From NCBI GenBank assembly GCA_018692925.1, contig JABHLH010000014.1:47831-111830 (forward strand): DNA of 64,000 nt, written 5' to 3'. This document shows positions 16,428 through 63,555 of the stretch, in pieces. A program made the translations under genes and the position numbers. The DNA is from an archaeon. GTDB taxonomy: Archaea; Nanobdellota; Nanobdellia; SCGC-AAA011-G17; GW2011-AR17. Each line of letters begins with the position of its first letter. The stretch's first letter is position 1. The notes under the pieces are model-generated. The model saw only the letters and a list, made by a program, of their open reading frames with translations. It ran no database searches and was not told where the DNA came from.

Positions 16428-17047
16428 TTTGAATTTCCTATTTGGACTAGCCCATACTCTTGATTATTTTCTCCCCAAAAAGCTTCGAATCTGTCTGCAA
16501 AACTCATACCTTGTATATAACCTAAACTTTTAGTTTTGTCTTCAAGAACACGATCTCCAAAAGATATACCTCTATCATTACCACATGTCATTTGAAGAAA
16601 ATATCCTGTTTTTAATGGTAAATCTTTCATCCATTCTTTTAAATCAATTGTGGTAACTACTCCATCTTTTGCTGACCATGAAGATCTAGAACCTTGTCCA
16701 ACAACTACAATACTTTGATAGGTATCATTTTCTAATACCTCTCTTAAATCTCTGCTTGTAGCGTTATGTTTAAAATCAAGTCTAATATCTCTTTCAGTAA
16801 AAAAATCTGAAATTTTCCCTTTATTTCCTAAAGTAAGATTTGCGAATTCAATTAAAGTTGGTTCATAAATTAAAGCAATTGCTTTTTCATTGCCACTAGT
16901 TTCTTTTATATTTTTTTGTGATTGATATGTGTTATATAATAATCCTGGAAAAGCTAATGGCCCAAGTTGTAATAAACTTAAAGGATTTAATCCTAGAACA
17001 AATTCGGAATATATTTCTAATTTAATTTTTCGAGGATATTCTATCAT
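16424..17047 (-). CDS. Caspase-like (clan CD-like) fold candidate
   Basis: SIVVVGQGSRSSWSAKDG...FLQMTCGNDRG resembles the GHG...TCG pattern of the protein at 58901-59962; His position is Gln. Confidence 0.4.
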   Translation of the reverse strand: MIEYPRKIKLEIYSEFVLGLNPLSLLQLGPLAFPGLLYNTYQSQKNIKETSGNEKAIALIYEPTLIEFANLTLGNKGKISDFFTERDIRLDFKHNATSRDLREVLENDTYQSIVVVGQGSRSSWSAKDGVVTTIDLKEWMKDLPLKTGYFLQMTCGNDRGISFGDRVLEDKTKSLGYIQGMSFADRFEAFWGENNQEYGLVQIGNSK

Positions 17048-19128
17048 TGTCTCACCTTCTGTGCCATTCTAGCTTTTCTTAATCTTTCTGTGTCTTGTTC
17101 TGTAGCTTTTCTTAATCTTTTCTTTTCTTGTTCAAAATTATTAGTTGTAGTTCTTACTGGTCCTGTAACTTCTACTGGATCAAAAGTAATTTCTGGTGTA
17201 GAATCCGAAAAAGTTAACTTTGGTGTAGGATCAGAAACTACTATTGGTTCTTGTGTAGAAACTTTTGTTTGATCTTCAAAAAATTCAGAAGTATCTTCAA
17301 GTTCTGTTTTAGAATCTGGTAACATTGCTCTTAATGAATTATATAATTTAGATGGATCTCTTTTAAATTTTTTAAAAGTTCTTTTTACTTCTTTAGGAAA
17401 ACCTTCAAAGTTAAAATTATCAAGTTCTTCTTTTGTGCTTACTCCTGTAGATAGTACATAGTTATCCTGGTGGTTAACTTGTTTTGAATATGAAAAAATA
17501 AATTGCTGCCCATTTGTAGAGATATTTAGATATCTTCCAAGATTATTATATCTTTCAATTTTTATTCTAAAAAGATCATTTGATTTTATTTCAAAATCTA
17601 TTTTAAATTTTTTATAATTTTTATTGTAACTTTCTAAAATAAAATCATGATATGCTTGACTATCAAAATTTTCTCCTAATCTAACTCCTTCTGGTAACTT
17701 TGCAGTTTCAATTCTATCTTCTAAAGATTTAATTTTTTTCCTTCTTTTGAGATAATTTGATATTGTGAATTTAGTATGTATTGCAGTTAATGTTAATAAT
17801 GCAGCAAATGGAATAATTACATCATCTACACTATTATATAAATAATAACCAGCTGTAGAAATAGCTCCTGTTAAACCTAATTGTATTGGAAGTTTTTTTC
17901 TATCTCTAGATCTTTCTTTTATTAAATCTAATCTTTGTTCTTCTAATTTTCTTACTTCAGTACCGTATTGTTCTTCGGTGTCAAGTAAGTGTAAATCTCT
18001 TTTGACTTGTTTATATTGTATTTTAAACTCCCCGAATATTGCTTTATCTATTATACTTAAACCTCCAACAATTCCTCCCGTAACTAAACTTGCTTTTAAC
18101 AAACTATGTTCAACAGAATAAACTATTGGGAATGATACTAAAGAGAAAATTTGTAATAAATTAAGCATAGAGATGGGAAAATTTAAAGCTTTTAATTTAC
18201 TTTCTTTCTTTTTAAGATCATTTCTTAGTGATGCATAATCTTTTCCTTCAACTACAGCTATTTCTTTTATTTCTTCATCAACTATTTCTTCTAAATTAAA
18301 ATCAAAATCATTTCTTATGTCTATTGCAGTATGATATCTTTGTTTTTGTTCAGGATGAACCATTTTTTCAATTACATTTCTAAATTCTTCTGGTATCCAT
18401 TCTGGCATTTTATATGGATTACTACCTCTAAATCTACTATCACTTAGTTCATTTGGTATTTCTCCAAGTAATGCTTCTGTTGCAGTAAATCCTAAAGCAT
18501 AATAATCCCCGTCTGGAGAAGTACTTCCAAGTAAAGCTTCTGGACTCTGGTATGATTTTGTTCCTGCTGCTGTGTATCTAGTTGTTTGATTAGAAGTTGA
18601 TTTTGATGTGTCTAAATCAATTAATGTAACATTGCCTTCATCATCAACAATAATGTGTTCTGGTTTTATATCTCTGTGGCAAACTGTTTTTACTTTTGGA
18701 TGTTGTGATTCATCATGTAAATATTCTAAAGCTTCTACAGTTTTACCAATAATTGGAGCTAATTCTTCTGGAGATATTGTTCCATCTTCTTCAATAATTT
18801 CTTTTAATGATCTTCCTTTTGCATATTCTTTTACAACTACAAACATACTTTGATCTGGAATATCAATAATTTCTTTTACGGTTTGAATACTAGGATGGTC
18901 TAAATGTTGTGAAATATCAATTCCCCTTTTTAGATCTTTTAATTCTTCAATATATGGTGTTAAACTTAATCTTCTTTGGATTACTTTTCCTGTGTATGTT
19001 TTTCCATCACCATTTTCTAATTGTAAAACAAGTCCTTGTCCACCTTCTCCGATTACTCCTGTAATATTATAATGGTTAATAGTTTGATCTTGAAACATTG
19101 CAGTTATTTGTGTTGGTAAAGTTGTCAT
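17044..19128 (-). CDS. Membrane Ser/Thr protein kinase
   Basis: YNITGVIGEGGQGLVLQLE, VVVKEYAKGRSLKEII, CHRDIKPEHIIVDDEGNVTLIDLD, YALGFTATEALLG; hydrophobic segments mid-protein. Confidence 0.92.
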   Translation of the reverse strand: MTTLPTQITAMFQDQTINHYNITGVIGEGGQGLVLQLENGDGKTYTGKVIQRRLSLTPYIEELKDLKRGIDISQHLDHPSIQTVKEIIDIPDQSMFVVVKEYAKGRSLKEIIEEDGTISPEELAPIIGKTVEALEYLHDESQHPKVKTVCHRDIKPEHIIVDDEGNVTLIDLDTSKSTSNQTTRYTAAGTKSYQSPEALLGSTSPDGDYYALGFTATEALLGEIPNELSDSRFRGSNPYKMPEWIPEEFRNVIEKMVHPEQKQRYHTAIDIRNDFDFNLEEIVDEEIKEIAVVEGKDYASLRNDLKKKESKLKALNFPISMLNLLQIFSLVSFPIVYSVEHSLLKASLVTGGIVGGLSIIDKAIFGEFKIQYKQVKRDLHLLDTEEQYGTEVRKLEEQRLDLIKERSRDRKKLPIQLGLTGAISTAGYYLYNSVDDVIIPFAALLTLTAIHTKFTISNYLKRRKKIKSLEDRIETAKLPEGVRLGENFDSQAYHDFILESYNKNYKKFKIDFEIKSNDLFRIKIERYNNLGRYLNISTNGQQFIFSYSKQVNHQDNYVLSTGVSTKEELDNFNFEGFPKEVKRTFKKFKRDPSKLYNSLRAMLPDSKTELEDTSEFFEDQTKVSTQEPIVVSDPTPKLTFSDSTPEITFDPVEVTGPVRTTTNNFEQEKKRLRKATEQDTERLRKARMAQKVRQ

Positions 19129-33965: not shown

Positions 33966-36284
33966 TTATTTTGCTGCTATTTGCTCAGCTTTTCTTCTCA
34001 GAGGACTATCTTGATTAAAAGAAGTATCTGGAATTAATGGACTTGGTTGTCTTCTATAAAAATAATTGCTTAATGTCCTTTGAATATTTCTTTTTTCAGA
34101 ATATTCTAATCTTCCTCTAAATTGAATTGGGTTTTCTGCTATTCTTTCAACAGGAAGCCTATAAGCTGCAACTAAACATCTTTTTTGATTTATGTATAAT
34201 CTTTCATCTAATAGACCTACAATATCATACATTTGTTCTACTATCATTTCTGGACTTAAAGGCATGTTTTCTCCTCGAGCTTGCTCTTCTGCCATAATGT
34301 CTGCATAAGGTGAAAATGGTGCAGCATTAATTGACATGAATGTTATAAATCTTGGTTGAACAGTATTTAGTAATTTTGCTGTCTGAACAACATGGTCTTC
34401 ATAATGTTTTAATCCACCAAGACCAGTCATAATCATTGTTGAAATTTGAATCTTACTTTGAACAGCTTTTTTTCCAGCTTTTTCCATTCTGTCATAATTT
34501 ATATTCTTGTTTACATATTGAAGAACTTGATCTGAACCAGTTTCAATACCCCAGAAAAGCATATTTAATCCGTGCTCATAAAGAGTATTCATTTCCTTAA
34601 TTGATTTTTTCTCTATACCTTCAGTTCTTGTGAAAGCAGCAATTCTTCTTATATTATTTCTATTATAAGGTGTATATTGTTGATTATCGAAAGTACTTCT
34701 AGCAGCATCAACATATTGTAATAATTTATCTGTTGGCATTGCAAAAATATCACCACCACCTAGAAAAAGTCTTTGAATATTTCCAAGATCCCCATCTAAT
34801 TTTTTTCTAACCTCTGCAATATGTTCTTGAAATGCTTGAAATCTTTTTATGTGGAATCTTGCTTGACCATATTCAGTACAGTATGTACACTTTGCATATT
34901 GACAACCATTTCCTACTTCAAGTTTTAATACTCTATGTAGTTCTTCTGATGGAGGTGAAAAAGGTTCTGCAGTATATATATCTCTATCGTGATATAATAA
35001 AGCTCTATCAAAAGAAAATTTAACTCCTAGTTTACCGCCGTCTCTTTTTTCTCTATTTATCCAAGAGTCAACAGTTTTTAGTAAAATTTCTCCAGTTATA
35101 TCCTCTAACTCATTTGTTTGTTCTGCTTTTCTAAAAACAACACTATATTCTTTTTTTAATAAAATTGATAAAGTATCCATTTGTTCTTTTGCTTTATCGT
35201 AATTATTTTCTAAAGCTAATCTTGTTGCTTCTAATACAATCTCTTTTAATTTTTCTTCATTAAAATTTTCAGTTTTATAATCTATTTTTTCATTTGCTTT
35301 ATGAGTAATAGATCTAACTGCTAGTACTATTAATTTTTCATATGGAATATTTACTTCATCTGGAAAATCTGGAATTTCATAATCAAAATTGTTATCAGCA
35401 AGAATATCTTCTAGTTGATGATTAGAGAGAGAATATTTCTTTTTTAATATTTTTGTTACTTCCTTTTTTTCATGATCATGATCAAAATTTATTCTATTTT
35501 TAGCCGAATCTATACTTAATTCTAAAATTAAATTTTCAATACCTTTTCTTAAATCTGTTTCACCAGTTGTTGTTAATGTATCATAAAATCTATTTTTTCC
35601 AGTTTGTTTAAGTTCATCTGGGTGAAAGTTCCAAAGAGTATTTTCAAATATAAGGACATATTTTTCCTCTGTAGGAGACGCAATTAGCTCACCTTCAGTT
35701 CCTAAACTATAATCTTCTTCATTACCACCATAATAATATACTTCTTCTAATGGATCATCAAAATCAAATCCTTCAAAACCAGTAATTTCAAGAATGTCAC
35801 CTAATTTTAAATCTGCTCTAATTGGTGTTGAAATGCTTTCGTATACTTTAGTTACTAATTGAGTTCTATATGTATCTAGATCTGTAAAATCTATATTTGG
35901 AATCTGGTCAAGATTGATATCAATTCTTTTTGCTAATTTTGAGAATGCATTATTAATATCTTTTTCATCAGTTGTTGGATTTTCTAATTCTAATTTTCTT
36001 TTTTCTTCAATTTCATTAAGTTTTATTTCTAGTTGAGAAAAATCTCCTTTAATTTCTTCTTTTACTGCATTTAAAATATCAGTTTTAGATGGTAATGTGG
36101 AAAGAAATTGTTCATAATCATCTTTATTATGAATACCTTTAATATTTTGACGTGCTGTTTTTATTATTTCTGCATCTTTTATTTGTGAAGATAATAATGC
36201 TAGTTGGTCCTCTGCTGAGAGTTGATAAATTGTTGCAAATAAGTTTGTAAAAACTTCTTCTTCTGTAGCTTTTATTTGTTTCAT
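33966..36284 (-). CDS. Radical SAM protein with about 430-aa N-terminal extension
   Basis: LEVGNGCQYAKCTYCTEYGQARF (CX4CX2C), LFLGGGDIFAMP, WGIETGSDQVLQYVNK. Confidence 0.9.
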   Translation of the reverse strand: MKQIKATEEEVFTNLFATIYQLSAEDQLALLSSQIKDAEIIKTARQNIKGIHNKDDYEQFLSTLPSKTDILNAVKEEIKGDFSQLEIKLNEIEEKRKLELENPTTDEKDINNAFSKLAKRIDINLDQIPNIDFTDLDTYRTQLVTKVYESISTPIRADLKLGDILEITGFEGFDFDDPLEEVYYYGGNEEDYSLGTEGELIASPTEEKYVLIFENTLWNFHPDELKQTGKNRFYDTLTTTGETDLRKGIENLILELSIDSAKNRINFDHDHEKKEVTKILKKKYSLSNHQLEDILADNNFDYEIPDFPDEVNIPYEKLIVLAVRSITHKANEKIDYKTENFNEEKLKEIVLEATRLALENNYDKAKEQMDTLSILLKKEYSVVFRKAEQTNELEDITGEILLKTVDSWINREKRDGGKLGVKFSFDRALLYHDRDIYTAEPFSPPSEELHRVLKLEVGNGCQYAKCTYCTEYGQARFHIKRFQAFQEHIAEVRKKLDGDLGNIQRLFLGGGDIFAMPTDKLLQYVDAARSTFDNQQYTPYNRNNIRRIAAFTRTEGIEKKSIKEMNTLYEHGLNMLFWGIETGSDQVLQYVNKNINYDRMEKAGKKAVQSKIQISTMIMTGLGGLKHYEDHVVQTAKLLNTVQPRFITFMSINAAPFSPYADIMAEEQARGENMPLSPEMIVEQMYDIVGLLDERLYINQKRCLVAAYRLPVERIAENPIQFRGRLEYSEKRNIQRTLSNYFYRRQPSPLIPDTSFNQDSPLRRKAEQIAAK

Positions 36285-36288
36285 TTTT

Positions 36289-38811
36289 TTAGTTATTTAA
36301 TATGTCTATAACATATTGTCTTTCTCCTAAACTTTCTGTAAACTCTTGACTAATTTTTTCTTTAGAAATTCCAAGTGATAATAATGTTGTTATATAATCT
36401 CGAGTTTTTGTAATTATTTTTTTTCTCTTATCATTTATGATTTGGTCATATTCTTCAAGAACTGTTTCAAGATCGCCATTTATTTGCTCTTTTATTTCTT
36501 CTATAGCTTGGACATAATTTTCAGGATATTCAACCAGTTCTAAATTTCTCATATATGATCTGCCATTTTTCCCATCACCATATTTTATTCTCATAATTGG
36601 ATCAGTTCCTTCAGGTTCTGAGACTATAGTTATAGGGCCATATTTATTATAAGGTTCATTTCCAGTACCGATTTTATGTCTTACTAGATCTCCTTCTTTT
36701 AATTTAATATTAGGGAGATCAAAAGCTGGAACCATAGGAGTAACATCAAAAGTTACACCTCTTAGATTACCATTAATATTTAGAATGTGGTTACCATGTT
36801 CATTTTTCTCATAATATCTAACAATAGTACCTTTTGGATATTCTCTATTATAATCTTCTTCTAAGATAACTAAAGTACCTTTAGGAATTTTTACTTTTGC
36901 TAAAGTCTTTTTTATGAATCCTGCTTCTTCATAAAGATGAGGAATAATTCTATCAAATATATTCTTTCTAAAGTTGTCAAATTTGTTTGCATCAAGATCG
37001 TTTATTTTTAATTCTTTTAAATCTACTTTTAATTCTAATTTGTCTACTAATTTTTCAACAAGTCCTAATGCTAATTTGGAATAATTTATTTGTTCTTCAT
37101 AGGATATTAATTCTGAAAAGAGATTTTTACGAGGAACATATTGATTAATTTCTCTATCATTTATACTTATTTCTCCAAGATTTGATCTTAAAAAGAAACT
37201 GATTATACTTTCTTCTAAATCCATTGACCTTAAATCAGAAATAACTCTTTGAATAGTTGTTTTTTTATTTGTTTTTGCATTCTCAAATTTGGATTCTTCT
37301 TCTTGAATTATTCTTTCTAGTTGAGTTTTAATTTGTTCTGGATTTATTCCATCTGTTTCTTCTTCTGTTTCTTCTTCTGTTTCTTCTTCTGTTTTTATAT
37401 ATTCAATTTCACTTTCTTCTAAATGCCATCTTTTACCATTATTTAATCTTGCAATAATATGATTTCCTCTTTTTTCAATTATTTCTCCAGTTGTGCCTAT
37501 AGCAACTTCATTAATGTGGCCACCGTGCATATATGCTCTTCCATTTTCTCCTTTTCCTGCTTTTATTATTTTAATTTGTTCACCTGTACCATGTATATTA
37601 ATTGCTTCAAGTAGTTCTAAATCTTTTAAATCTATTTTAGTGTAACTTGCATAATTTTTCCTTGGTCTTGGACAAAAATCTAAATCATAATCAAGGTAAC
37701 CAGTTGTTCCAATAGGAAATCCTTTAACCTTTATTTTGGTTCTTACATAATTCTTTTTTCCAGGAGTTTTTTCTTCTGAAGGTTTATAAAAACGATTTAA
37801 GGAAAGAATTTCATCTTTTAACCAATTAAATCCTCTATCGCTTCGAATTCTTCTCTCTTCACTATGAAAAAAGAATAAACCTAATTCTTCTTCTATTTTT
37901 TTAACAGTAGAATTTCTTAAATCACTATATGTAGAACCTACTTCATGATAAATTTTTAATTCTTCAGAAATCATTAATGCAATACCTAATCTAGATCTGT
38001 AAATATTTTGATATTTACTTAAAATGGTATCAAAATCTTCTTCTTTAAAATTAGGATCATTGTGAATAGCTAATGCAACTAAAGATTGTTCCATTAATTC
38101 TTTTGGTTCTAAATCTGCTGAATGTATTTTTGAAGATAAATATGGACTAACTGTTTTTTTCACATCAACAGCGAAATTTAATTTTGCTAATTCTTCAAGA
38201 GTAGTTATTTTTTCTAAATTTATTAAATCATTAGGAATTACTTCTTCTAAAACCTTTGAAGCTAATAATGTTTCTGGATCTAATCCAATATAATCAAAAG
38301 GTAATTCTCTTGGATGTGGATCTGGTACTGCAATAAATTCTGGTTCTTCTTCTGTAATTCCAGTATCTTGAATTTCAGGTAATTCAAATGAAATCATTTT
38401 ATGAAGTCTTTCTGCAAATGCTTTTCCTGTTATTTCTAAATATTTTTCTAAAGATTCAACTTTCTTAATTAATTGTGGGGAATTATTTTCTAAAGCAGAT
38501 TGAGTTAAAATTAATGAGACAGTTTCGGAAGGATTTATTCCATGAGAATAAAAATTACTAACATATACATTTGCAATTTCTTGAGAAGGTGAGAGATGAT
38601 TTAATAATGTGGATGTAATTGGATCTATTCCATTATCTAATTCTAGTTCTATTCTTCTAGGTTTTACAAATCTTGAAACTCTATGAGTATTTGTTGTTGC
38701 TTGAGGAGTCCAATCTAGATGTTCTTCTACTACTTCTTCTTCTAATGAAGCTTCTAATAATGCATCTAAATCAAAATCATCTTCATCATCATACATTTCA
38801 TCTTTTGTCAT
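36289..38811 (-). CDS. Large hypothetical protein with SH3-like/MIB-HERC2-like repeats
   Basis: Repeated patterns PKGTIVRYYEKNEHGNHILNINGNLRGVTFDV; KEGDLVRHKIGTGNEPYNKYGPITIVSEPEGTDPIMRIKYGDGKNGRSYMRNLELVEYP; GKGENGRAYMHGGHINEVAIGTTGEIIEKRGNHIIARLNNGKRW. Confidence 0.55.
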   Translation of the reverse strand: MTKDEMYDDEDDFDLDALLEASLEEEVVEEHLDWTPQATTNTHRVSRFVKPRRIELELDNGIDPITSTLLNHLSPSQEIANVYVSNFYSHGINPSETVSLILTQSALENNSPQLIKKVESLEKYLEITGKAFAERLHKMISFELPEIQDTGITEEEPEFIAVPDPHPRELPFDYIGLDPETLLASKVLEEVIPNDLINLEKITTLEELAKLNFAVDVKKTVSPYLSSKIHSADLEPKELMEQSLVALAIHNDPNFKEEDFDTILSKYQNIYRSRLGIALMISEELKIYHEVGSTYSDLRNSTVKKIEEELGLFFFHSEERRIRSDRGFNWLKDEILSLNRFYKPSEEKTPGKKNYVRTKIKVKGFPIGTTGYLDYDLDFCPRPRKNYASYTKIDLKDLELLEAINIHGTGEQIKIIKAGKGENGRAYMHGGHINEVAIGTTGEIIEKRGNHIIARLNNGKRWHLEESEIEYIKTEEETEEETEEETDGINPEQIKTQLERIIQEEESKFENAKTNKKTTIQRVISDLRSMDLEESIISFFLRSNLGEISINDREINQYVPRKNLFSELISYEEQINYSKLALGLVEKLVDKLELKVDLKELKINDLDANKFDNFRKNIFDRIIPHLYEEAGFIKKTLAKVKIPKGTLVILEEDYNREYPKGTIVRYYEKNEHGNHILNINGNLRGVTFDVTPMVPAFDLPNIKLKEGDLVRHKIGTGNEPYNKYGPITIVSEPEGTDPIMRIKYGDGKNGRSYMRNLELVEYPENYVQAIEEIKEQINGDLETVLEEYDQIINDKRKKIITKTRDYITTLLSLGISKEKISQEFTESLGERQYVIDILNN

Positions 38812-38820
38812 TTGTTTCTC

Positions 38821-40281
38821 CTAATCTGTTGTTTCAGTAGTTGCAGCAAAAGCCTTAACTTGTTCATCGGTTACAATTAAATCTGGTACTGGTTTTGAAT
38901 AACAATCACAAGTATCTTTTAATGGATTTGTTCCAAATCTTTTTGATAAATCTGATCTATAAGTTTGTTCACCATTGAAAGGTTCACCAAATTTTTCAGA
39001 TTCAAAAATAGTATAAGTATCTAATACTGCGCATACAGCTGCAATTGCATTACTCATTACAACTGAAGGATTGGGATTTAATGCACAACTTGCTCTTCTA
39101 ATCATTTCTTCTCTTCTACCCTCTTCATAAATATTAAATAAGTGATCCATACATTGTGTTTTTCCTTCTAAATGAACATCCCATCTTGCACTATTTGGTA
39201 ATGCTCCTGCACTGATCAAAGGTGTTTTTGTATTAATTCCGTAAGCTGAATTTACTGCTCTTGTATACCTATTGTCAACAAAATCAAAAACTAAATCATA
39301 TTTTTCTTCAGTTGTAAAACCAGGTAAGATTTTTTGATTGAATCCAGTTGATGCAGTTTTTCCATGACTCATTGCTAGAATTTTTTCTGCAATATGTAAT
39401 GCTTTTTCTTTATCTACACCATCATAAGCTAAAACTTGTCTGTTAATATTGTGAGATTCAAAAATATCGTAATCAAAAACATCTAATCTTTCAAAACCCA
39501 TCATTGAAGCAGCAATTGCACCCCAACATCCTAAAGCTCCTCCACCTAAGAAAGCAACTTTTAATTTGGAATAAATTTCGGAATCAGGTCTTTCTAATTC
39601 TTCACCTTTTTCAGGGAAACCAAATCTATAGCCAGAACCTAATCTGTACCTAATTGGATTTTTTAAGAAGTTTTGATCTTTGAAAATTAATTTTTTTACT
39701 TCTTCTGTAATAATACCAGATAAAGCTAATGCCATTAATGGATCCTGTTCTTGAGCTTCGAAGTTAGGCATTAAAAAATGTGGGTTGTTTGTATTTGGAT
39801 CACATAATATCAATTTTGTGTAAGCCCATTTTGAAGATGTGCTTAAAACAGGAATATTTTTTTCTCTTCCATAAGCAATAGCTAACTGTTTTGAAGAAAT
39901 TGAATTAGTTGCATCAATAATAACATCAGTACCTTTTAGAGCTAATTGATCTAATCTTGATTCAAGATCAGTTGCATAGCCTTCAACATTGATTTGTCTA
40001 TTAATTTGAGATAATAAGCCTGGAAGTGATTTTGCTTTTGGACCTTTTGCAAATGGCATATCTAAGAAAAGTTCATTTTCTTTTGCATCTTGACCATCAA
40101 TTAAAACAATATTTCCAACACCAAGTGATGCTAGACATAAAGAAGCATAAATTCCCTGAGGACCTAAACCAATTACTGCAACTCTTGCATTATTTAATTT
40201 AGCTTGACCGTCGTCTCCCCATAAAAGAGTTTGCCTTTTATAACGATCTTCCTCAATAATTATTGTTTCTTCTTTTGTCAT
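38821..40281 (-). CDS. E1-like protein with two tandem ThiF/MoeB-type adenylation domains
   Basis: Domain 1: DRYKRQTLLWGDDGQAKLNNARVAVIGLGPQG. Domain 2: LKVAFLGGGALGCWGAIAASMMGFERLDVFDYDIFESHNINRQ (GxGxxG and ExxNxNRQ) followed by RRASCALNPNPSVVMSNAIAA. Confidence 0.88.
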   Translation of the reverse strand: MTKEETIIIEEDRYKRQTLLWGDDGQAKLNNARVAVIGLGPQGIYASLCLASLGVGNIVLIDGQDAKENELFLDMPFAKGPKAKSLPGLLSQINRQINVEGYATDLESRLDQLALKGTDVIIDATNSISSKQLAIAYGREKNIPVLSTSSKWAYTKLILCDPNTNNPHFLMPNFEAQEQDPLMALALSGIITEEVKKLIFKDQNFLKNPIRYRLGSGYRFGFPEKGEELERPDSEIYSKLKVAFLGGGALGCWGAIAASMMGFERLDVFDYDIFESHNINRQVLAYDGVDKEKALHIAEKILAMSHGKTASTGFNQKILPGFTTEEKYDLVFDFVDNRYTRAVNSAYGINTKTPLISAGALPNSARWDVHLEGKTQCMDHLFNIYEEGRREEMIRRASCALNPNPSVVMSNAIAAVCAVLDTYTIFESEKFGEPFNGEQTYRSDLSKRFGTNPLKDTCDCYSKPVPDLIVTDEQVKAFAATTETTD

Positions 40282-40282
40282 T

Positions 40283-42049
40283 TTATTTTTTTGGAGCCTT
40301 ATATGTATTCAATACACTTTCTGCATAGGTTTCTAAAAGTTTATTTTGTGCACCTATTTGTGCATGAGAAAATCGCAACATAAAATCTATTGTTTCAGCA
40401 TGATCTACGTCCCATTCTAATAATTCATTTCGAATATTTTTTACTGCATTTCCTAATCTATAGTCCAAATTTATTAAATGAGCTTCAACAATTTGTAAGT
40501 TATCTGGAAGAATTTCTCCAACAATTTCAATAGAAGTTCTAAGACCTAATGGATCATATTCTTGTCTACCTTTATGCCAGGTACTTGCTGGGTGTGAACA
40601 TAAAGTTTTTGAAAGTTCTTGCATGAAAGTTGAATATTCACAAAATGTTTGTCTATGTTTAGTCATGTACATTTGTGCTGCAAGAGTAAACATTGTTGCT
40701 ATCTCTGTATATCTATAAACTGCATTAGAAATTTTATCTTCAGTTATTAATTTTTTTGATGGTGCTGATCTAACACTAGAACCTGTAGTTAGTGATTCAA
40801 GTAAATCTGAATCTCCCTCATCAACTTCTTCATTTTGTGTTTGTATTAATTCAAGACGTTTACTTAAAGATAAAGCTGTGTAATAATTTGTTGTTATAGC
40901 ACCAGGATTTTGCCAATTACCCCATGCAGTATTTGTTCCATAAGCTGTTGCTGGAATTGCTGCATTACTTGCTGTTGCTGCAGGTTTTCGAAGTGCTCTT
41001 CTAACTGCTTTTCCTGCTTTTTTAACAAATCTTTCTGGAAAAATAACTCTTGCTGAAATTAAATCTTCAATTTCTTCATAAGTAGGTATATTTATTCCAT
41101 GTTCAATTACTCTAATAGGAATATTTTCAAAGGAATCATAATTTTTTTTACCTGAAAAAGCAAATTTTTCTTCTGCTCCAATTTTAATATAAGGAAATCC
41201 TCCACCATTATTGAAAACTATACTTACACCATAATTAATTAATCTTGGTTCAAAAGTTTGTTGATCAATTAAATCTAAAATCTGAGCTAAAAATTCTGCT
41301 TTGTTGAAAGCATTTGGGTCAGGATTTATATCAAAATGTTGTAATGCTGAAAAAAATGCTTCATCATGTGGATAAATAAATCTTTGAATTGCATCTGAGA
41401 GTTCATCTCCTTTTAGACAAAGTTGATCTTCACCATATTCTTTTCTAATTCTATCTTCAATAAAACTATAGGGTGATTCAAAAATTTGTCTAGTAGTTTT
41501 TGCCATTTTACTAGTAAGCTTAACTAACTCTTTATCATCTTGTGGTGAATGATGTAAGCCTCCATTTTTTGATGGATGTATGTGAAACATAGCAGCTAAT
41601 CTTTGATGAGTATTATTTTTTTCATTTCTTGCTTTTAATTCTCTTGCAGCAAAATCATATTGTTCTGCAATTAAAATTGCACCTGTAGTAACATGAAGTT
41701 TTCTTGGAACAATAAAATCTCTAAAATTGGTTATATCATCTCTTTCAGCAACAAAAAAACCACCTACTTCTAATGCTCTGCCATATAGTGCACCTTTTTT
41801 ATCTTGTTCTTGAACAAGAGGTCCAATCCTCTGACCTAATTTAATTGCTCTATCTGTTATTGTAAATTCTTTTGGAAGTAAATCAGCTAATCTTAAAATT
41901 TCTTCTCTTGTTTCTTCTTCTTCTTCATCACCTAATAAAGATCCTAGTAATTCATCTCCAAAATCATCATCATCGTATCCACCAGAAGCTGGACCATTTA
42001 TTGGGCAAGTTCCGTCTGGGCAATCTTTATTATCATTATCTTTATTCAT
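40283..42049 (-). CDS. JAB/MPN (JAMM) domain protein
   Basis: AMFHIHPSKNGGLHHSPQDD fits HxH-x(n)-SxxD JAMM; upstream EVGGFFVAE. Confidence 0.75.
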   Translation of the reverse strand: MNKDNDNKDCPDGTCPINGPASGGYDDDDFGDELLGSLLGDEEEEETREEILRLADLLPKEFTITDRAIKLGQRIGPLVQEQDKKGALYGRALEVGGFFVAERDDITNFRDFIVPRKLHVTTGAILIAEQYDFAARELKARNEKNNTHQRLAAMFHIHPSKNGGLHHSPQDDKELVKLTSKMAKTTRQIFESPYSFIEDRIRKEYGEDQLCLKGDELSDAIQRFIYPHDEAFFSALQHFDINPDPNAFNKAEFLAQILDLIDQQTFEPRLINYGVSIVFNNGGGFPYIKIGAEEKFAFSGKKNYDSFENIPIRVIEHGINIPTYEEIEDLISARVIFPERFVKKAGKAVRRALRKPAATASNAAIPATAYGTNTAWGNWQNPGAITTNYYTALSLSKRLELIQTQNEEVDEGDSDLLESLTTGSSVRSAPSKKLITEDKISNAVYRYTEIATMFTLAAQMYMTKHRQTFCEYSTFMQELSKTLCSHPASTWHKGRQEYDPLGLRTSIEIVGEILPDNLQIVEAHLINLDYRLGNAVKNIRNELLEWDVDHAETIDFMLRFSHAQIGAQNKLLETYAESVLNTYKAPKK

Positions 42050-42051
42050 TT

Positions 42052-43461
42052 TTATTCTTCTCCAGTATATCCTCTTTCTACTACTTCAACAATCATGTAA
42101 CCTTGTTCATGTGCTTGTTTTCTTGTTAGTGATCTTTCATTACCACCAAGTATATCATCTACAGGATCACCAAAAAATCTATGGTTTGGTCCAGGGTGAC
42201 TCTTTAAACTTCCAGGATTTAATGGTTCCATTAAAGCTGTTGCAGCATCACTAATTTTTCTTACTAAATCTATTTTTGTGTGACCATAATCTCCAGAATC
42301 TCTACTTAAATTACAAATACTAGAATTTCCACTTGTTCTATTTCTTAAACAAGGATGGTGTTCTCTAGGTTCAACAATAATTGGACTATCAGAAGAATAT
42401 ATTTGTCCTCTACTCCAATTAAGTCTTATTGCTACTTTTGTTGAATCATAAGGCCAAAACCTATTAACATCTCTACTATCTTGAGTTGCAAACTTTGGAA
42501 CTTGAGTGTAAACATATAAATCCCCACTTTTTATAAAAAATCCACATAAATTATCTAAATTTAATTCATCTAATTCTGCTAATTTTCTCATATATTGTTT
42601 TGAAGCATCTTTTTCTCTTTTTCTATTATTGATTTCATCAAATGCTGTTTGAGTTCTTTCTAATGCAGCAATTCTCCAAATATTTTTTCTTTTATCTAAT
42701 AATCTTTCTGATAAATCACTCACATGCATATCTGCTCTAGCATGCATCCTATAACTTTCATTATTAACATGGATTATACTTTCGTCTTCTTTGGGATTCT
42801 CAATTTTTATTAAGGAATAAACTAAATTGTTTGAAATAAATAGAGGTGTATCAATAGAGAACTCATAAAGAGAACCTACATGTTCATTATAATCAAAACC
42901 AATCTCAGATTCTAGATTATTTTTTTCTTCTCTTAAAAGAGATAATCTCATTTCCTCAGCTAAATTTATTTCTTCCTCATTACCTTCGACTTCACCAAAA
43001 CGACTTTTTAATATTTCTTGGATCTCTTTTTTTGCTCTTTCTTGAGGTGTAATTTCATCTACTAAATCATCATCATCAGAAATTAATGAAAGTAATAAAT
43101 TATCATCATCATCATATTTTTTACTTAATAAGAAAGGTAAAAGTTCTGACATTGCATAATCTAATGATTTTAATCTTGATCCCTCTCTATCAATTTCATC
43201 TTGTCTTTTTATTTTTTGATCAATTCTAGCTTTAATATATTCTGTACAATAAGTTTCAATTCTTTCAGTTTGTAATTTTTCACTTAAGTTTTCTAATTCT
43301 AAAAAAGTTAAAGAAGGAATTAAATCAAATCTAATTCCACCAGTTCTTAAAAAATCTGGATTTGTATTAGTTTCTGCAAGACTATATGCTCTTCCATCTA
43401 ATAAAATAAATGAAGCCTGCCTTTCAGCAAGCATATCCAAAAAGCTTTCTAGTCCTGACAT
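42052..43461 (-). CDS. E2-like (UBC-fold) protein
   Basis: SSDSPIIVEPREHHPCLRNRTSGNSSICNLSRDSGDYGHTKIDLVRKISDAATALMEPLNPGSLKSHPG resembles the E2 core HPNI..G.ICLSIL..W.....I..ILL.IQ.LL.EPNP..P; candidate catalytic Cys codon near 42313-42315. Confidence 0.6.
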   Translation of the reverse strand: MSGLESFLDMLAERQASFILLDGRAYSLAETNTNPDFLRTGGIRFDLIPSLTFLELENLSEKLQTERIETYCTEYIKARIDQKIKRQDEIDREGSRLKSLDYAMSELLPFLLSKKYDDDDNLLLSLISDDDDLVDEITPQERAKKEIQEILKSRFGEVEGNEEEINLAEEMRLSLLREEKNNLESEIGFDYNEHVGSLYEFSIDTPLFISNNLVYSLIKIENPKEDESIIHVNNESYRMHARADMHVSDLSERLLDKRKNIWRIAALERTQTAFDEINNRKREKDASKQYMRKLAELDELNLDNLCGFFIKSGDLYVYTQVPKFATQDSRDVNRFWPYDSTKVAIRLNWSRGQIYSSDSPIIVEPREHHPCLRNRTSGNSSICNLSRDSGDYGHTKIDLVRKISDAATALMEPLNPGSLKSHPGPNHRFFGDPVDDILGGNERSLTRKQAHEQGYMIVEVVERGYTGEE

Positions 43462-43465
43462 GTTT

Positions 43466-44128
43466 TTATAATTTAGCGTCTAAGCTTTCATATCCACCAG
43501 GGATAATAATAGCTGAAACTACTAATTCTACTCCACCCATTGTTTTAATTGGATTTCCTTGTCTTTTGTAAACAGTGTGTTCTTCAGTTACATCTGCAGA
43601 AGGAATTGATCTTGGTTTTTTTCCTTCCATTATAATTGTCATTTCTACAAAATATGAACTAATTACTGCATCTGATTTTACTCTTTCACCATTAACAGCT
43701 AAAGTATATCCACCGAATCTTCCTTGTTTTTCTTTAACAAGATCAGCTACATCTCCTTCACCAGTCATTTCTTGTAATAATCTGGATACTGCTTCATTTT
43801 GTTTTCTTGGAACATTTCTGCTATATTCTCCTCTATATGTTTTTGGAACAGAATCTCCTAATGTTACATCTTTTCCAACTGCGTAATTTGCAATGTCTGC
43901 TGCTGAACCGTAAGCTAATACTGCTCTATCTCTTCCTTTTGTTGAAAATGTAATTCTATCTCCTTCAATACAACCAGGATATGTTACTAAAGAAATTGGC
44001 ATATCTGCTAATTCTTCTAAATTTAAAGGTGCTGCCTTTACGTCTTGTTCTGCCTTTCTATCTTCAGGTCTTTCTCTACCACAAGGGGTTGTTGCCTTTG
44101 CTTTTTTTTGCTTTATTTTTTTAACCAT
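43466..44128 (-). CDS. Candidate ubiquitin-like modifier or Ubl precursor with GG near C-terminus
   Basis: GYTLAVNGERVKSD...VELVVSAIIIPGG|YESLDAKL; position in operon next to E2/JAB/E1; start adjusted to MVKKIKQKK. Confidence 0.45.
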   Translation of the reverse strand: MVKKIKQKKAKATTPCGRERPEDRKAEQDVKAAPLNLEELADMPISLVTYPGCIEGDRITFSTKGRDRAVLAYGSAADIANYAVGKDVTLGDSVPKTYRGEYSRNVPRKQNEAVSRLLQEMTGEGDVADLVKEKQGRFGGYTLAVNGERVKSDAVISSYFVEMTIIMEGKKPRSIPSADVTEEHTVYKRQGNPIKTMGGVELVVSAIIIPGGYESLDAKL

Positions 44129-44152: not shown

Positions 44153-45721
44153 TTAAAAAACTCTTCCTATTCTTTTTCTAGTCTTTTTCGCTCCACCAAG
44201 ATCAGTAAATTCTCTTTGGTAGGTTCTAGTATTAAAATACCAAGGCTCAATTTCTTTTCCACCATTAAATTGTTTTAATGCTGCATTAAATTTTTCGTCA
44301 CCTATTGTTCTTCTATATTCCATTGCAAATCTAATGAATACCTCAGGAACATTTCCTCCTCCACAACATCCACCGTGGTCGATTCTTCCTAATTTAAAAC
44401 ATCCACCAGTTGGACATGCATCCATTAATACTCCATCATTCAATTGACTAACAAGAGGAGTTATTTCGTATCTCTCTTGAGCTCTATAAAGATAAGTTCC
44501 TACATCATAATTTCCCATTCTACTTGAAAATAATAATTTATCTCGTAGATCCTGAATTTCTGAAGAAATTTCTTTTACAATTTCTGGCATTTGAGTAATA
44601 CCTTTCTTTTTTGATTCTGCAATTTTATCAAAAAACATTTTACCAACAAGATCACCTAAAGAAGATCTTCTTGTTTTTCTATCAGAATATTCTAAATCCA
44701 TAACAAAAATTTCATTTCCTTTGTTTGCATCTTGAATATTTCTTTCTGCTTTATCATTTTTAGCTAAATAAATAACAGGCGTATTTGGATATGCTTTTTC
44801 AATTTCAGTTTGTGATATAGCTTTATCAGTTATAATTGCTAAAGGTAATCCTTCTTCTTCTATTGGTGGAAGTACTCTGAAATGTGAAACTCTTTTATTT
44901 CTTCTTTGGAAACCTATAACTTGTTTATCATCAGATAATAACATTACATTGTCTGGATTTGTTCTTAGAGGAGCCTTGTAGCCAGTTCTTTTCATCATTT
45001 CTTTTACTAAATGTACTTTTCCAAGTTCTCTTAACAAATCTCTTTTAGTATAATAAGCTTCATTTCCAGTCGCTGCAAATTCTTCAGTCATTTGTAATTC
45101 TGCTCTAAGCATTTCTTCAAGATCTGTAATACCTTCTCTTCTTTGTGAACGGATATAATTTACAGTTTCATATAATTCAGTTATAAATTCTCCATTTGAA
45201 TTATTTACTAATAAAAGTGAATGATTGCCTAAAGCTTCTTCAATTTCTGAAAGATTATCTTTTTGTCCAAAATATACTAATGTTGATTGAGGATAAAGCA
45301 TTTTTACTTTCTCTGGAGAAACAGCTTCACTTACAATTACTATACTTGGATTCTCTTCAGTACTATTTGGTCTAGCATTATAATTTGAAGTAAATTCAAA
45401 ATCTAACTTAAGATCTCTTCTTCCTCTATAATCTTTTGAACTAATTAAAAGACCTAGTTGTTCATTTGCTCTTTTTGTTAAATATGAAAATCCGCCCATT
45501 TTTTCTGAGATTGCAGAAAAGTCATCTACAAAACCAGCCCCTGGATTAAATAAACCTAACTGTAAAAATATTCCTAATTTTTCTAATACTGTTTTAGGAT
45601 CTGAAGTTTCAAATTCTACAGGATATTCAGATGCATCTCTAGTTTCTAAGTTTGGATCAGTTAAAGCCATGTAATCGCTTATACCAAAAACACCATCATC
45701 TAATTCTTCAACTTCTCTCAT
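44153..45721 (-). CDS. Hypothetical protein with Cys/Gly-rich metal-binding-like motif
   Basis: DACPTGGCFKLGRIDHGGCCGGGNVPEVF; two apparently related segments (ENPSIVIVSEAVSPEKVKMLYPQSTLVYFGQKDN and GLPLAIITDKAISQTEIEKAYPNTPVIYLAKNDK). Confidence 0.6.
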   Translation of the reverse strand: MREVEELDDGVFGISDYMALTDPNLETRDASEYPVEFETSDPKTVLEKLGIFLQLGLFNPGAGFVDDFSAISEKMGGFSYLTKRANEQLGLLISSKDYRGRRDLKLDFEFTSNYNARPNSTEENPSIVIVSEAVSPEKVKMLYPQSTLVYFGQKDNLSEIEEALGNHSLLLVNNSNGEFITELYETVNYIRSQRREGITDLEEMLRAELQMTEEFAATGNEAYYTKRDLLRELGKVHLVKEMMKRTGYKAPLRTNPDNVMLLSDDKQVIGFQRRNKRVSHFRVLPPIEEEGLPLAIITDKAISQTEIEKAYPNTPVIYLAKNDKAERNIQDANKGNEIFVMDLEYSDRKTRRSSLGDLVGKMFFDKIAESKKKGITQMPEIVKEISSEIQDLRDKLLFSSRMGNYDVGTYLYRAQERYEITPLVSQLNDGVLMDACPTGGCFKLGRIDHGGCCGGGNVPEVFIRFAMEYRRTIGDEKFNAALKQFNGGKEIEPWYFNTRTYQREFTDLGGAKKTRKRIGRVF

Positions 45722-45736: not shown

Positions 45737-46102
45737 TTATCTTAATTCAGGTGCAACTAAAACTGTTGCTGATAAAATTTCATCAAGGACTGCTTGATCT
45801 TCAGGATTATCTTTTGCCCTTGTTAAAACTACTTCCATAGTTTGATTAAAAAGATCTGTACCTAATGATACATAAGCATAAGGTGCAATATCAATCATAT
45901 GTTTTGGATCTTCAAAAGTATCACATACTCTATTCAAAAAATTTGTAGCTCTTCCTAATCCCAATTCCATATTTGGATCTTCAGTAGGTTTATTTTCATT
46001 AATACCAAATGTTGAAACCAATGTTTTTCCTATTTTATCTAATGGATCTGCACATTGCTTTTGATTAAATTTCCTTAATAATTCTTCTTTATGATCTTTC
46101 AT
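45737..46102 (-). CDS. Small helical hypothetical protein
   Basis: ORF within a tightly packed operon. Confidence 0.55.
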   Translation of the reverse strand: MKDHKEELLRKFNQKQCADPLDKIGKTLVSTFGINENKPTEDPNMELGLGRATNFLNRVCDTFEDPKHMIDIAPYAYVSLGTDLFNQTMEVVLTRAKDNPEDQAVLDEILSATVLVAPELR

Positions 46103-46104
46103 TT

Positions 46105-47637
46105 TTATCTCCCTTTTGCAATTTCATCTACAGCTGCTACTGCTTTTTCAACTTCATCCATTGAATTGTAAACATAAAAACTAAGTCTAACTGTTCCATC
46201 AAGTTCTAAAGCTTCATGAGCAAGAGATGCACAATGAGTTCCATTTCTAGCTTCAATCCCTTTTCTATTTAATTCGAAAGCAAGATTTTGATGTTGCATT
46301 CCTTCAAGAGAAAATGCTATTAATCCACTTCTTTGTTCAGCATTTCTTGGACCATATAATTTTACACCTGGAATTTTTGATAAAGAATCAATTGCTGCTT
46401 GAGTTAATTTTTCTTCATGTTGCATAATATTAGTCATAGCTTCTGTTACAACACTTCTTGTTGCCATTAATCTTTCATTAGCATCATATAAAACTTCAAG
46501 TCGATCAGGATCTATTTCTTCAAATTGATCATATAAATTATTTTCAGCATCTGTTAATTGCTTTGTAATTTCAAAATCTCCTCTTGGAGTGTTCATTAAA
46601 ATATCAGTTACTAATTGTCTTCCTTCTTTTGCAATTCTTTCAGGTTCAGAAATTTTTCCTTTAATAAATAAATTTCCAAGACCCATATTGATCATATAAG
46701 AAATTCCTCTTCCTGTTGCTGCAATACCTAAAATATTTGGAGTACCTGCTGTAAATTTCCAAGGAAGATCATTGTATTCTACCTTTCCAAGTTTAACATC
46801 ACTAATCATATCACCACCATATAAAAATGGATCCATTGATTCTAAAACTTCTTTTTTACCATAAAGACCACCAACACCTAGAGGTAATCCCATTTTGTGA
46901 AATGACCAAGCTAAAAAGTCACAATTAATTTTTTGAACATCTACTGGTGTTCCTGGAACTAATTGAGCTCCATCTACTAAAAAGTATGAACCTCTAAAAG
47001 AATCTAATCTTGGTTGTTGATAGCCACTTGAATGAGCAATATCTCCAATTCTATTTAAGTCTGGTTTGTAACCTAAAAAGTTTGATGCACCAGTTGTTGT
47101 AACAAGTTTTGTTTTGCTGTCAACCATTGAAGCTAATTGGTCAATATCAAGTTCTCCAGTCAGTGGATCAAATCCAGCAACCCTTAGTTCAATATCAATT
47201 CCTCTTCTAGCTAAAATATTTTGTAATGCATACCAAGGTACGTAATTTGAATTGTGCTCAAGTAAAGTTGTAACAATGTTATCTCCATTTCTGAATTCAT
47301 TTTCTAAAGATCTCATAACTAAATTCATCATTTCAGAAGTGTTTCTTCCAAGAATAATTTATCTCCATGAATTTGCATTTACTAAGTTAGCTGTCATGTT
47401 ATATGCTCTTTCAAATTCTTCAGTCATAACTTGAGAAGCATCATATTCACCTCTGTGAACATTTGCATATGTAAAAAGAAATTCCCCTAAATTCTGATAA
47501 ACAGATAATGGAAGTTGTGTTGATGCAGTATTATCAAGAAATATTCTATCTGTTTTATTTGCATCAAGATCTATCTCTATTCTTCCAGTTTGATATGGAA
47601 AATGAGTTTTTATCACACTCGGGTCGATTATTGTCAT
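46105..47637 (-). pseudogene. SufS/CsdA-like cysteine desulfurase interrupted by one in-frame TAA (pseudogene, recoded gene or base-call error)
   Basis: N-part 47637-47359 (DRIFLDNTASTQLP...NVHRGEYDASQ) and C-part starting 47331 lie in the same frame, separated only by TAA at 47361-47359 and nine sense codons (IILGRNTSE); PLP Lys SFHKMGLP and Cys GTHCAS intact. Confidence 0.85.
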
Positions 47638-47775: not shown

Positions 47776-49818
47776 TTAGACTAATTTAGCTTTTTTTATG
47801 ATTAATGTTGCAACAATACCATCTTCTTCAATTTCAAAATCTTCAATTTGAATTTTTTTATTAAAAATAGGGCCATCAATCATTAAAGATTCAAATTCAC
47901 CACCTTCACCAGCGATATTAAAACCTATTTTTTCGTTTAATTGAATTAATTTTTGTAAGTGGTCTTCTGTAATTATTTTGTTTAACCAAGATTTCTCTAA
48001 ACCATCTGCAGCAACTTTTGTAATTATAAATTTAAAATCTTTGTTAATTATTTCTCTAACTTCAGTCTCTTGATTCATGTGCCAGAGTGGTGAGAAGATT
48101 TTTAATGATAATGAGTCTGCAACTTTTTCTATTCTTTCTCTTTGGTAATTTGAAAATAAAGCTCCAGTGATAATTCCATCAATCTGGTATTTTTCTTTTG
48201 CTTCCTTAAGAATTATTTTTAAATCTTCTAATTCTTTTTCTTTTTCTCCTTCTGTTTCTTGGATCATTAAAGGAATTCCTGTTGATTCTGATTGAAGTTT
48301 TACAATATCTACAGCTGGAGTGTGGTACATATATGAATCTAAATTTTTACTCTTGATTGTTATCATACAAGAAATCTCATAATTTTGTTTCATCATTGTG
48401 TACATTGCATAAATCCCGTCTTTACCTGAACTAACCAAAGCTGCTAATTTTAAATTCTTTTGAGGATAAAATTGTTTTAGATAAGAAGAGATAAATTTAT
48501 GATTCTCTTTCTTTGTTAATTTTTTTAGTGCTTTGTGAAAGTTTGAACCATATTGTGCTGCTCTTTTTTTCCTTTGTGAGAATCTTTCTGGAAGTTTTAA
48601 TTTGATTGCTAAATCTCTTAAGATAATTTTAGATTGTTCTTCATTGATTTTGTATTTCTCTGGAATTTTAAGAGCATAGTTTACTAATTCTTTATCTAAG
48701 AAAGGAAGTCTTAATTCTAATTCATTAAACATTGTAATTACATCGTCTCTGTAAGTGTCCCTTTCATACATTTTTAGTAATCCAGAGATACATTCTTCAT
48801 TTGCATTTCTAGAATTTTTGTGTCGTTCATAACCTGCAAATATTTCTTCTGAACCTAAACCAGAGAAAATGACTTTACATCCATCTTCCTTAGCCTTTTT
48901 ACATGCAGCATAAAATGTTAATGCAACACCTACTTTAACAACATTTGAATCTTCAATTAAAGGTACAATAGTTTTTAGTAATGATTCTACTTCATCTAAT
49001 TTTATTTTTACAATTTCTAAGTTGAAGTTTAATTCCTTTGCAATTTCTTGAGCATAAGTTAAATCTTCTGGTTCTTTTAGGTCAGGATCGTCAAAAACTG
49101 AAAGGTAACAAGTGAAATTATGTCCATTATTTTTAATTATGTGAGATAATATAGTGCTGTCAATTCCCCCAGAGAATAAAACTCCAAATTTTTTGCTTGG
49201 AATTCTTTTTTTAATTGCATTAAGAAAATAATTTTCTAAATCTTTTAAGATAATTTCTTTTGAATCTTGATTTTCTGGTTTAATTGTGAAGAATTTTCTT
49301 TTTTTAATTGTTATTTTATCTTCTTCTTTGTTGTAAATTAATATCTCTCTAGGATTTAATTCTTGAATATTTAAGTAACCTAAATTTTCTAAAACTTTTT
49401 TCTCAGATGCGAAAGCAAATGTATCTGTGTGAGTATACCAAAGAGGTTTGATTCCAATTATGTCTCTTGCTAAGTAAATTTGATTATCTTTGTAGTAAGC
49501 GAAAGCAAAAACACCATCTAATTTTTTTAAAACTTCTTCAATCTCATTGTTTTCTAATAAATTGAATAAAACTTTTGAATCGCTCTCTTCATTCCCTAAT
49601 TCTTTCCAATTGTAAATCTCACAGTTTGCAGTTAAAATACCTCTTCCTGTAATTGGTTGCTTAGTGAATCCTACTACAGAATGTAATGTGTGACCTAAAG
49701 TAAAATTATCCCCTTCATAAATATCTTGGTTATCTTTTCCTCGATTTTTTAATAATTCTAGAGATTTCTCTACTTGAATCTTTGAATTTTCTCCGAATAT
49801 TCCAATTATTCCACACAT
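47776..49818 (-). CDS. Asparagine synthase (glutamine-hydrolysing)-like fused to DPH6-like diphthine-ammonia ligase domain
   Basis: MCGIIGIFG Ntn-amidotransferase, FGVLFSGGIDSTILSHI PP-loop; C-terminal LAALVSSGKDGIYAMYTM...DGIITGALFSNYQRERIEKVA...FNIAGEGGEFES. Confidence 0.92.
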   Translation of the reverse strand: MCGIIGIFGENSKIQVEKSLELLKNRGKDNQDIYEGDNFTLGHTLHSVVGFTKQPITGRGILTANCEIYNWKELGNEESDSKVLFNLLENNEIEEVLKKLDGVFAFAYYKDNQIYLARDIIGIKPLWYTHTDTFAFASEKKVLENLGYLNIQELNPREILIYNKEEDKITIKKRKFFTIKPENQDSKEIILKDLENYFLNAIKKRIPSKKFGVLFSGGIDSTILSHIIKNNGHNFTCYLSVFDDPDLKEPEDLTYAQEIAKELNFNLEIVKIKLDEVESLLKTIVPLIEDSNVVKVGVALTFYAACKKAKEDGCKVIFSGLGSEEIFAGYERHKNSRNANEECISGLLKMYERDTYRDDVITMFNELELRLPFLDKELVNYALKIPEKYKINEEQSKIILRDLAIKLKLPERFSQRKKRAAQYGSNFHKALKKLTKKENHKFISSYLKQFYPQKNLKLAALVSSGKDGIYAMYTMMKQNYEISCMITIKSKNLDSYMYHTPAVDIVKLQSESTGIPLMIQETEGEKEKELEDLKIILKEAKEKYQIDGIITGALFSNYQRERIEKVADSLSLKIFSPLWHMNQETEVREIINKDFKFIITKVAADGLEKSWLNKIITEDHLQKLIQLNEKIGFNIAGEGGEFESLMIDGPIFNKKIQIEDFEIEEDGIVATLIIKKAKLV

Positions 49819-62305: not shown

Positions 62306-62770
62306 ATGGTAAAACTTGAAATGAGAGATTTTATTGGTGGAGATTATGAGAAATATATCAAAGAGATTACTAAAATGCATATGAAAAAATATTTTATGGA
62401 TAACTTTGGTGGTTGGTCAGATGAACTATGTCGTGATAAATTCTTTAAAGTTGTTGCTAATGGTTATGTTAAATTATTTTTTATCAAAGATTTGTTTGTT
62501 GGATATGTAACTTTTAACCCTGAAATTAAGGAAGAGAGTTCTTATATAATTAATGATATTCATGTTTCAAAAATATTTCAAGGATTAGGTTATGGTACTG
62601 AGATCTTAAATATTGCCATTTCTAAGTGTAAAGAATTAAATGCTAAACAAATTAAAGTTTTTGTTTTTAATGAAAATCCGGCTTTAAAATTTTATAAAAA
62701 AAATGGTTTTAAAGTTATTAAAAATTTAGAAAGATCTAATAGTTGTGTAATGGTTTTGGATTTGAATTAA
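62306..62770 (+). CDS. GNAT-family acetyltransferase
   Basis: INDIHVSKIFQGLGYGTEILNIAI, VFVFNENPALKFYKKNGFKVI. Confidence 0.88.
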   Translation: MVKLEMRDFIGGDYEKYIKEITKMHMKKYFMDNFGGWSDELCRDKFFKVVANGYVKLFFIKDLFVGYVTFNPEIKEESSYIINDIHVSKIFQGLGYGTEILNIAISKCKELNAKQIKVFVFNENPALKFYKKNGFKVIKNLERSNSCVMVLDLN

Positions 62771-63555
62771 ATAATTTTTAGTTCAAGACCTTCAACTGAT
62801 TCATGACCTCTAGCATTTATCTTAAGAATACTAAAGTTTAATTTTTCTTTTGAAGCTTGTGTTAAAACTAATTCAGGTTTAAAATGTAATAATCCTAAAT
62901 ATGGAACTCTTGACTTTAAATATCTTGGAACTAAATTAAAATCCCCTTCATAATCAATAGTTATATCTTCTTCCAACCCTTCATCAAGCTCTGCTTTAGT
63001 ATGGAGATAATTAAATGGAATTCCATTTGTAATATAAAAAGAAATACCAGAAATACTAATTAAATTAGCAACTTCCATATTTGGTTGTCCAATTAATCCT
63101 GCTTTTAGTTTTTCTCTTCTAAATTCACCTAATTTTGTTGCTTTAATTTTATCCAATAACTCTCTTCTTTCTTCAAAAAAAGTTTGAGATTCACTATAAG
63201 ATCTCAATATTTGGTCCCTATAATTCCTTAAGATTTTATCTCTTTTAATAGTCCATCCGCAACTATATGGGGAAATTAATTCACCTTCTAAAATAGGATG
63301 TGTGTGACATGCTATTAGAACTTGATTTAAGGCCTCTGCTTTTTTTCTTTGTGTTTGAAATCTACCATCATAAATTAAAGGTGTATGTCCATCATCAAAC
63401 ATATACATTTTTTCATATTTTAAACCTTCATCAATTGAACTTGCTCTAATTAAGAAATTACTTTGAGATTCTTTAAAAGCAAATTGATATACAGTTTCAA
63501 GAACTTCAGAAGGTATTAAAAAAGATTTTTTCATAATAGAATTATTTTTTATCAT
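62767..63555 (-). CDS. Degenerate JAB/MPN-like protein
   Basis: FLIPSEVLETVYQFA...VLIACHTHPILEGELISPYSCGW: HxHP plus SPxS in place of SxxD; likely start MKKSFLIP. Confidence 0.45.
   Translation of the reverse strand: MIKNNSIMKKSFLIPSEVLETVYQFAFKESQSNFLIRASSIDEGLKYEKMYMFDDGHTPLIYDGRFQTQRKKAEALNQVLIACHTHPILEGELISPYSCGWTIKRDKILRNYRDQILRSYSESQTFFEERRELLDKIKATKLGEFRREKLKAGLIGQPNMEVANLISISGISFYITNGIPFNYLHTKAELDEGLEEDITIDYEGDFNLVPRYLKSRVPYLGLLHFKPELVLTQASKEKLNFSILKINARGHESVEGLELKII

Follow-up and report, generated by a model that had tools for sequence, protein, structure and literature searches.

The gene cluster around the E2-like gene

The window, i.e., the whole stretch of 64,000 nucleotides of archaeal DNA analyzed here, contains a run of genes on the minus strand, with gaps of mostly 1–15 bases between them, surrounding an open reading frame at 42052-43461. 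The sequence-only reading had described this frame as a divergent E2 enzyme with a UBC fold. Both the 469-residue ORF on the minus strand and the peptide quoted from it are present exactly as claimed. The run comprises, in this order, a desulfurase, proteins of 121 and 522 residues, a ubiquitin-like (Ubl) protein, the E2-like protein, a JAB protease of 588 residues, an E1, a protein of 840 residues, and a radical-SAM protein. The features are as follows.

46105..47637, minus strand: SufS-type cysteine desulfurase with an in-frame TAA at 47359-47361
45737..46102, minus strand: 121-aa protein that matches the N-terminal region of a fused protein of 647-702 aa in relatives
44153..45721, minus strand: accessory protein of 522 aa containing CPTGGC...GGCCGGG; relatives have it fused to the 121-aa protein
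43466..44128, minus strand: putative Ubl precursor, 220 aa from ATG, ending IIIPGG-YESLDAKL (upstream-gene comparison, predicted structure)
42052..43461, minus strand: E2-like protein, 469 aa, with an N-terminal extension (about 270 aa) and a C-terminal UBC-like domain (homologue conservation, AlphaFold2, hhalign)
42187..42651, minus strand: predicted UBC-like domain, residues about 271-425 (AlphaFold2 secondary structure, hhalign to eukaryotic E2s)
42313..42357, minus strand: active-site stretch H369-P370 ... C383, holding two of the best-conserved positions across 44 homologues
40283..42049, minus strand: JAMM/MPN+ (JAB) metalloprotease, 588 aa (E..HxH..S..D conserved)
38821..40281, minus strand: E1 of 486 aa carrying two ThiF domains in one chain, with conserved adenylation motifs and Cys399
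36289..38811, minus strand: 840-aa accessory protein, of which the relative in locus L003 also matches the radical-SAM protein
33966..36284, minus strand: radical-SAM protein, 772 aa (PF04055, 1.6e-11)

To follow the E2-like protein among its relatives, we called the ORFs in 40 stretches around them and classified these with HMMs built for this analysis, giving 44 E2-family members, all from the same phylum. The HP box noted from the sequence is H369-P370, and C383 lies 14 residues past the histidine, as the sequence-only reading had approximately placed it. A single motif in a single protein might be due to chance, but its conservation across the 44 members speaks against chance. After the start methionine, P370 (proline in 42 of 43 members) and C383 (cysteine in 41 of 42) are the two most conserved columns of the alignment, followed by G307 and H369, the latter being histidine in 38 of 43. 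Conservation of the cysteine among homologues had been chosen beforehand as one of two points on which the E2 assignment could fail, and the assignment has withstood it. The LLxxPNPxxP-like turn, also put forward as an E2 feature, was discarded as evidence because relatives read EPLSEISL, NGLTLKSL, and similar at this position. The spacing between histidine and cysteine is 10, as in canonical E2s, in five members, e.g., YFHPFVYDNGSICYDG in locus L050 and YKHPFVYDDGKICYDG in locus L097, and the active-site loop of the window protein, HHPCLRNRTSGNSSICNL, is four residues longer than in these members. Against an E2, the asparagine of the HPN motif is absent throughout the family, with HPF in most members and HPC, ending in C371, in the subgroup of the window.

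The only loss of the cysteine, a replacement by aspartate, was found in a shorter second E2 paralogue (gene 7 of L050, L050:5778-6311) adjoining an intact copy, and this paralogue may be a UEV-like partner that has lost its activity. This paralogue and the missing asparagine would both suit a catalytically dead UBC/RWD-like scaffold, in which the conserved cysteine is structural. It is well established that dead UBC-fold proteins such as UEV and RWD proteins lose the cysteine, whereas all but one of the 42 members retain it here, aligned with the catalytic cysteine of E2s, and we consider a dead scaffold very improbable.

Resemblance to known E2s in profiles and predicted fold

The relationship to known E2s was assessed by HMM-HMM comparison with hhalign, using six eukaryotic E2 sequences. 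The profile of the C-terminal core scored 25.4 (pairwise E of 0.001), with HP aligned onto HP and cysteine onto cysteine. By comparison, 100 column-shuffled profiles reached 10.6 on average and 16.5 at most, and control alignments of the E1, JAB, and Ubl families scored 10.6-13.0. The better-scoring query was the 42-member core profile; four E2s with a longer query gave a weak hhalign match. Searches against curated collections weigh against an E2. No E2 family of Pfam (PF00179, Prok-E2) was found up to E=1 in 19 members, no E2 model of NCBIfam matches the window protein, and an hmmsearch of PDB sequences with the E2 profile returned no E2 and coiled-coil noise only. A diverged member does not strictly need to match a curated E2 model. 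A PF00179 search of this genome also found nothing, which is uninformative because the same search was blank in 14 control genomes.

The structure of the window protein was modeled by AlphaFold2 with 19 sequences (pLDDT of 79, pTM of 0.52). The predicted order is a helix (271-296), strands (299-362), the active-site loop (363-384), and a further helix (396-411), in agreement with the earlier proposal that an E2-like part lies C-terminal to a long extension. The extension itself is predicted to repeat an arrangement of strands followed by helices at 17-115 and 207-296, and this two-fold pattern may reflect an internal duplication. In a Foldseek search against the PDB, E2 enzymes, including UBE2G1, UBC9, UBC13, Rad6, UBE2D, and UBE2S, account for 29 of the 50 top matches. 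The first match is the C-terminal domain of KNL1, which is composed of RWD domains, whose fold is related to that of UBC. The proposal of a UBC-like fold, the other point on which the assignment could fail, is thus favored by the composition of the match list but not by any single match, as all E-values were 0.06 or worse and nothing appeared at E ≤ 0.001. The model leans toward a diverged UBC fold of the E2 kind, short of proof.

That none of the searches of Pfam, PDB sequences, and folds gave a match significant by itself is also what one would see if the protein were an unrelated cysteine enzyme with a motif imitating E2s. Such an enzyme would account neither for a profile match above all 100 shuffles and three control families, nor for the dominance of E2s among the fold matches, nor for the gene linkage to E1, JAB, and Ubl described below, and we regard this explanation as highly unlikely. 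The protein thus appears to be of the kind that the sequence-only reading proposed, a divergent E2 in an archaeal operon, partly for other reasons, namely the profile match and the E1/JAB/Ubl neighborhood.

Partner genes and the putative conjugation module

The gene directly 5' of most of the E2-like genes encodes a small protein with a glycine near its end, followed by a short tail. The C-terminal ends read IIIPGG-YESLDAKL in the window, KQTGG-LEKCL in L035, and RVPGG-NSLDGVVENCYEI in L050. A GG within the last 30 residues occurs in 21 of the 36 genes directly upstream, against a background of 8.9% among the remaining ORFs of comparable size. Within the subgroup of the window, the first glycine alone is constant (PGG, SGQ, PGD, PGS, PGH), which weighs against a conjugation module. 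The predicted structure of the window protein (pLDDT of 90) resembles FAT10, the Caldiarchaeum ubiquitin, ISG15, Hub1, and others in the PDB, but no single match is significant for a β-grasp fold. Pfam searches with 20 of the Ubl proteins gave nothing relevant save one weak ThiS match (E=0.077).

As for the other two partners, the JAMM motif (Glu, HxH, and S..D) is widely kept among the relatives of the JAB protein. Elsewhere in the window, a 262-residue ORF (62767-63555) carries a CHTHP motif that recalls a JAB domain by eye. In the E1, few if any of 36 sequences lack the G-loop, DxD, NxNRQ, or D336 of the C-terminal ThiF domain. D270, D272, N278, R281, and D336 occur in 36 of 36, and Cys399 in all 35 that have the position. 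In the N-terminal ThiF domain, the arginine of RYxRQ is retained in most cases. Eukaryotic E1s are composed of an arginine-giving partner domain and an ATP-binding domain, and the same two-domain arrangement is found here in one chain of 486 residues. The E1 of the operon is the only ThiF ORF in this genome, in which no protein scored above the Pfam cut-off for ThiS/MoaD.

The linkage of these genes is maintained across the family. An E1 lies on the same strand within four genes of 38 of the 44 E2s, and a JAB within the same distance of 36 of the 44; several of the E2s without a nearby E1 or JAB are at contig ends or are second copies. The stretch L047:2780-6325 encodes a tandem pair of E2-family proteins (605 and 567 aa), both with HP and cysteine, and no E1 or JAB was found nearby. 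A second genus of the family to which this archaeon belongs carries all genes of the operon in an identical order; its E2 and E1 proteins are 42% and 60% identical to those of the window, respectively, and its locus has one extra B12/radical-SAM gene. Some loci have further neighbors. A ClpX-like AAA+ ATPase ORF lies two genes downstream of the E1 at L036:599-2182, suggesting a link to unfolding or degradation, and an ORF with a protein kinase domain (Pfam, 6.9e-30) lies near a Ubl-E2-E1 cluster at L048:3432-5129. Outside the operon, the window contains two large ORFs of 800 and 694 residues with serine/threonine kinase domains by eye and a 207-residue gene between them (14025-19128). It also contains a DEAD-box-helicase-like ORF whose long tail consists of repeats rich in Arg, Gly, and Ser (3095-5017) and a 680-residue ORF combining, by eye, an asparagine-synthetase-like part with a C-terminal diphthine-ammonia-ligase-like part (47776-49818).

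Taken together, homology, conservation, the active-site alignment, and gene linkage make it very probable that this protein is the E2 belonging to a complete and dedicated Ubl conjugation module, of which all chemical steps, targets, and the purpose are inferred. The JAMM protease would trim the Ubl precursor after its glycine. The two-domain E1 would then adenylate the Ubl C-terminus and hold the Ubl as a thioester on Cys399, from which it would pass to Cys383 of the E2 and on to an amine of the target. The JAMM protease may also take the Ubl off its targets. Against such a module stands the lack of a recognized E3; no RING is among the Pfam matches of the operon and the neighboring genes scanned. 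Degradation is one possible outcome of the tagging because the proteasome is present, with two ORFs of the 20S proteasome family in this genome. A role in defence is another possible outcome, and the two are equally conjectural. PADLOC and NCBIfam gave no name for this E2, Ubl, or JAB, and we do not claim a defence system because the resemblance seen by PADLOC to defence E1-E2 proteins is confined to the E1.

Four loci, the window, L003, L031, and L032, have a long form of the operon with the additional desulfurase, the 121/522-residue protein, and the radical-SAM gene. In all four, a CPxGxC motif is common to the N-terminus of the JAB and the 522-residue protein, and may serve sulfur or metal handling on both proteins. 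The desulfurase and radical-SAM neighbors could point to sulfur chemistry, which would weigh against a conjugation module. The long form would accommodate a sulfur-carrier pathway, in which the E1-adenylated Ubl receives sulfur from the desulfurase as a thiocarboxylate for a biosynthesis involving the radical-SAM protein. In such a pathway, the E2-like protein would not conjugate proteins but would take part in sulfur or acyl transfer. In most loci, however, Ubl-E2-JAB-E1 is accompanied by neither a desulfurase nor a radical-SAM gene, and the HP/Cys pair of the E2 is kept alike in the long and short forms. Moreover, the desulfurase of the window reads NANSWR-stop-IILGRNTSEM where the intact relative in L003 reads on (NADSWREIMFGRNATEM), and is therefore interrupted or misread, owing to a nonsense mutation or an assembly error. 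For these reasons, we judge a sulfur-carrier pathway improbable and retain the Ubl conjugation module as the preferred interpretation.

Distribution and comparison with known systems

Close relatives of the window E2 are few, being found in 2 of 99 relative genomes. Scanning with the two closest E2s returned only the sister locus from a genome-contig collection and no match from viral contigs. When 380 genomes sampled from the phylum were searched, a profile of these two E2s found the family in 19, and a profile of 19 members found it in 38, covering 31 of 265 genera. E2 cascades in archaea have been reported mainly from Caldiarchaeum and Asgard archaea. The statement of the sequence-only reading that E2s are uncommon in archaea has to be amended for this divergent family, which is not rare within its phylum and occurs in about one in ten of the sampled species. 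A full-text search of open-licence papers found no description of such a system in DPANN archaea, the kind of group in which genome size and gene content would place this phylum. The system is of a known kind, but the family forms a new branch that neither Pfam nor NCBIfam detects, so that curated E2 and Ubl models miss it as a whole. Small-genome archaea would thereby gain a widespread protein-tagging system of their own, independent of the others. The four-gene short forms of other members, e.g., in L035 and L097, are compact enough for reconstitution in vitro.

SAMP/UbaA and MoaD/ThiS share the E1-like ThiF chemistry on a β-grasp protein but have no E2, whereas here an E2-like gene accompanies the E1. 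The E1 of the operon matches the UbaA model of NCBIfam far below the cut-off. Among bacterial systems, operon type 6d likewise combines a separate small Ubl with a C-terminal glycine, E2-like, E1-like, and JAB proteins, and an accessory protein (Iyer et al. 2006, PMC1779556). The 6d E2s lack the classical histidine and have a downstream histidine instead (PMC1779556), whereas the family described here keeps the classical HP and its Ubl carries a tail to be removed. BilABCD, the bacterial ISG15-like system, and Bub also have Ubl, E1, and E2 genes, and Bil a JAB protease as well; the cysteine of BilB sits in a CEHH motif (PMC11354881).

The operons of Caldiarchaeum subterraneum and Asgard archaea resemble the present one in encoding a Ubl precursor with a glycine and a short tail, an E1, an E2, and a JAMM protease. 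In the Caldiarchaeum system, Ubl trimming, activation, and conjugation take place in vitro, with the JAMM protease cutting exactly after GlyGly (PMC5654768, PMC6043591). Their E2, which has an HPN loop, is recognizably eukaryote-like, and they also include a small RING E3. By contrast, the E2 and Ubl of the window are invisible to Pfam, no RING was recognized, the E1 carries its two ThiF domains in a single chain, and a large extension precedes the UBC-like domain of the E2. We tentatively raise a more specific and rather doubtful proposal, that this is a separate archaeal lineage of complete Ubl conjugation, apart from the Caldiarchaeum/Asgard and the bacterial systems. It would have its own Ubl and E2 families, a UBA1-like single-chain two-domain E1, and a long form joining tagging to sulfur and radical chemistry through the desulfurase and radical-SAM proteins, so that the tag, the target, or an enzyme would be chemically modified. 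The family as a whole would offer a second archaeal point of comparison for the origin of E1-E2-Ubl cascades with JAMM processing.
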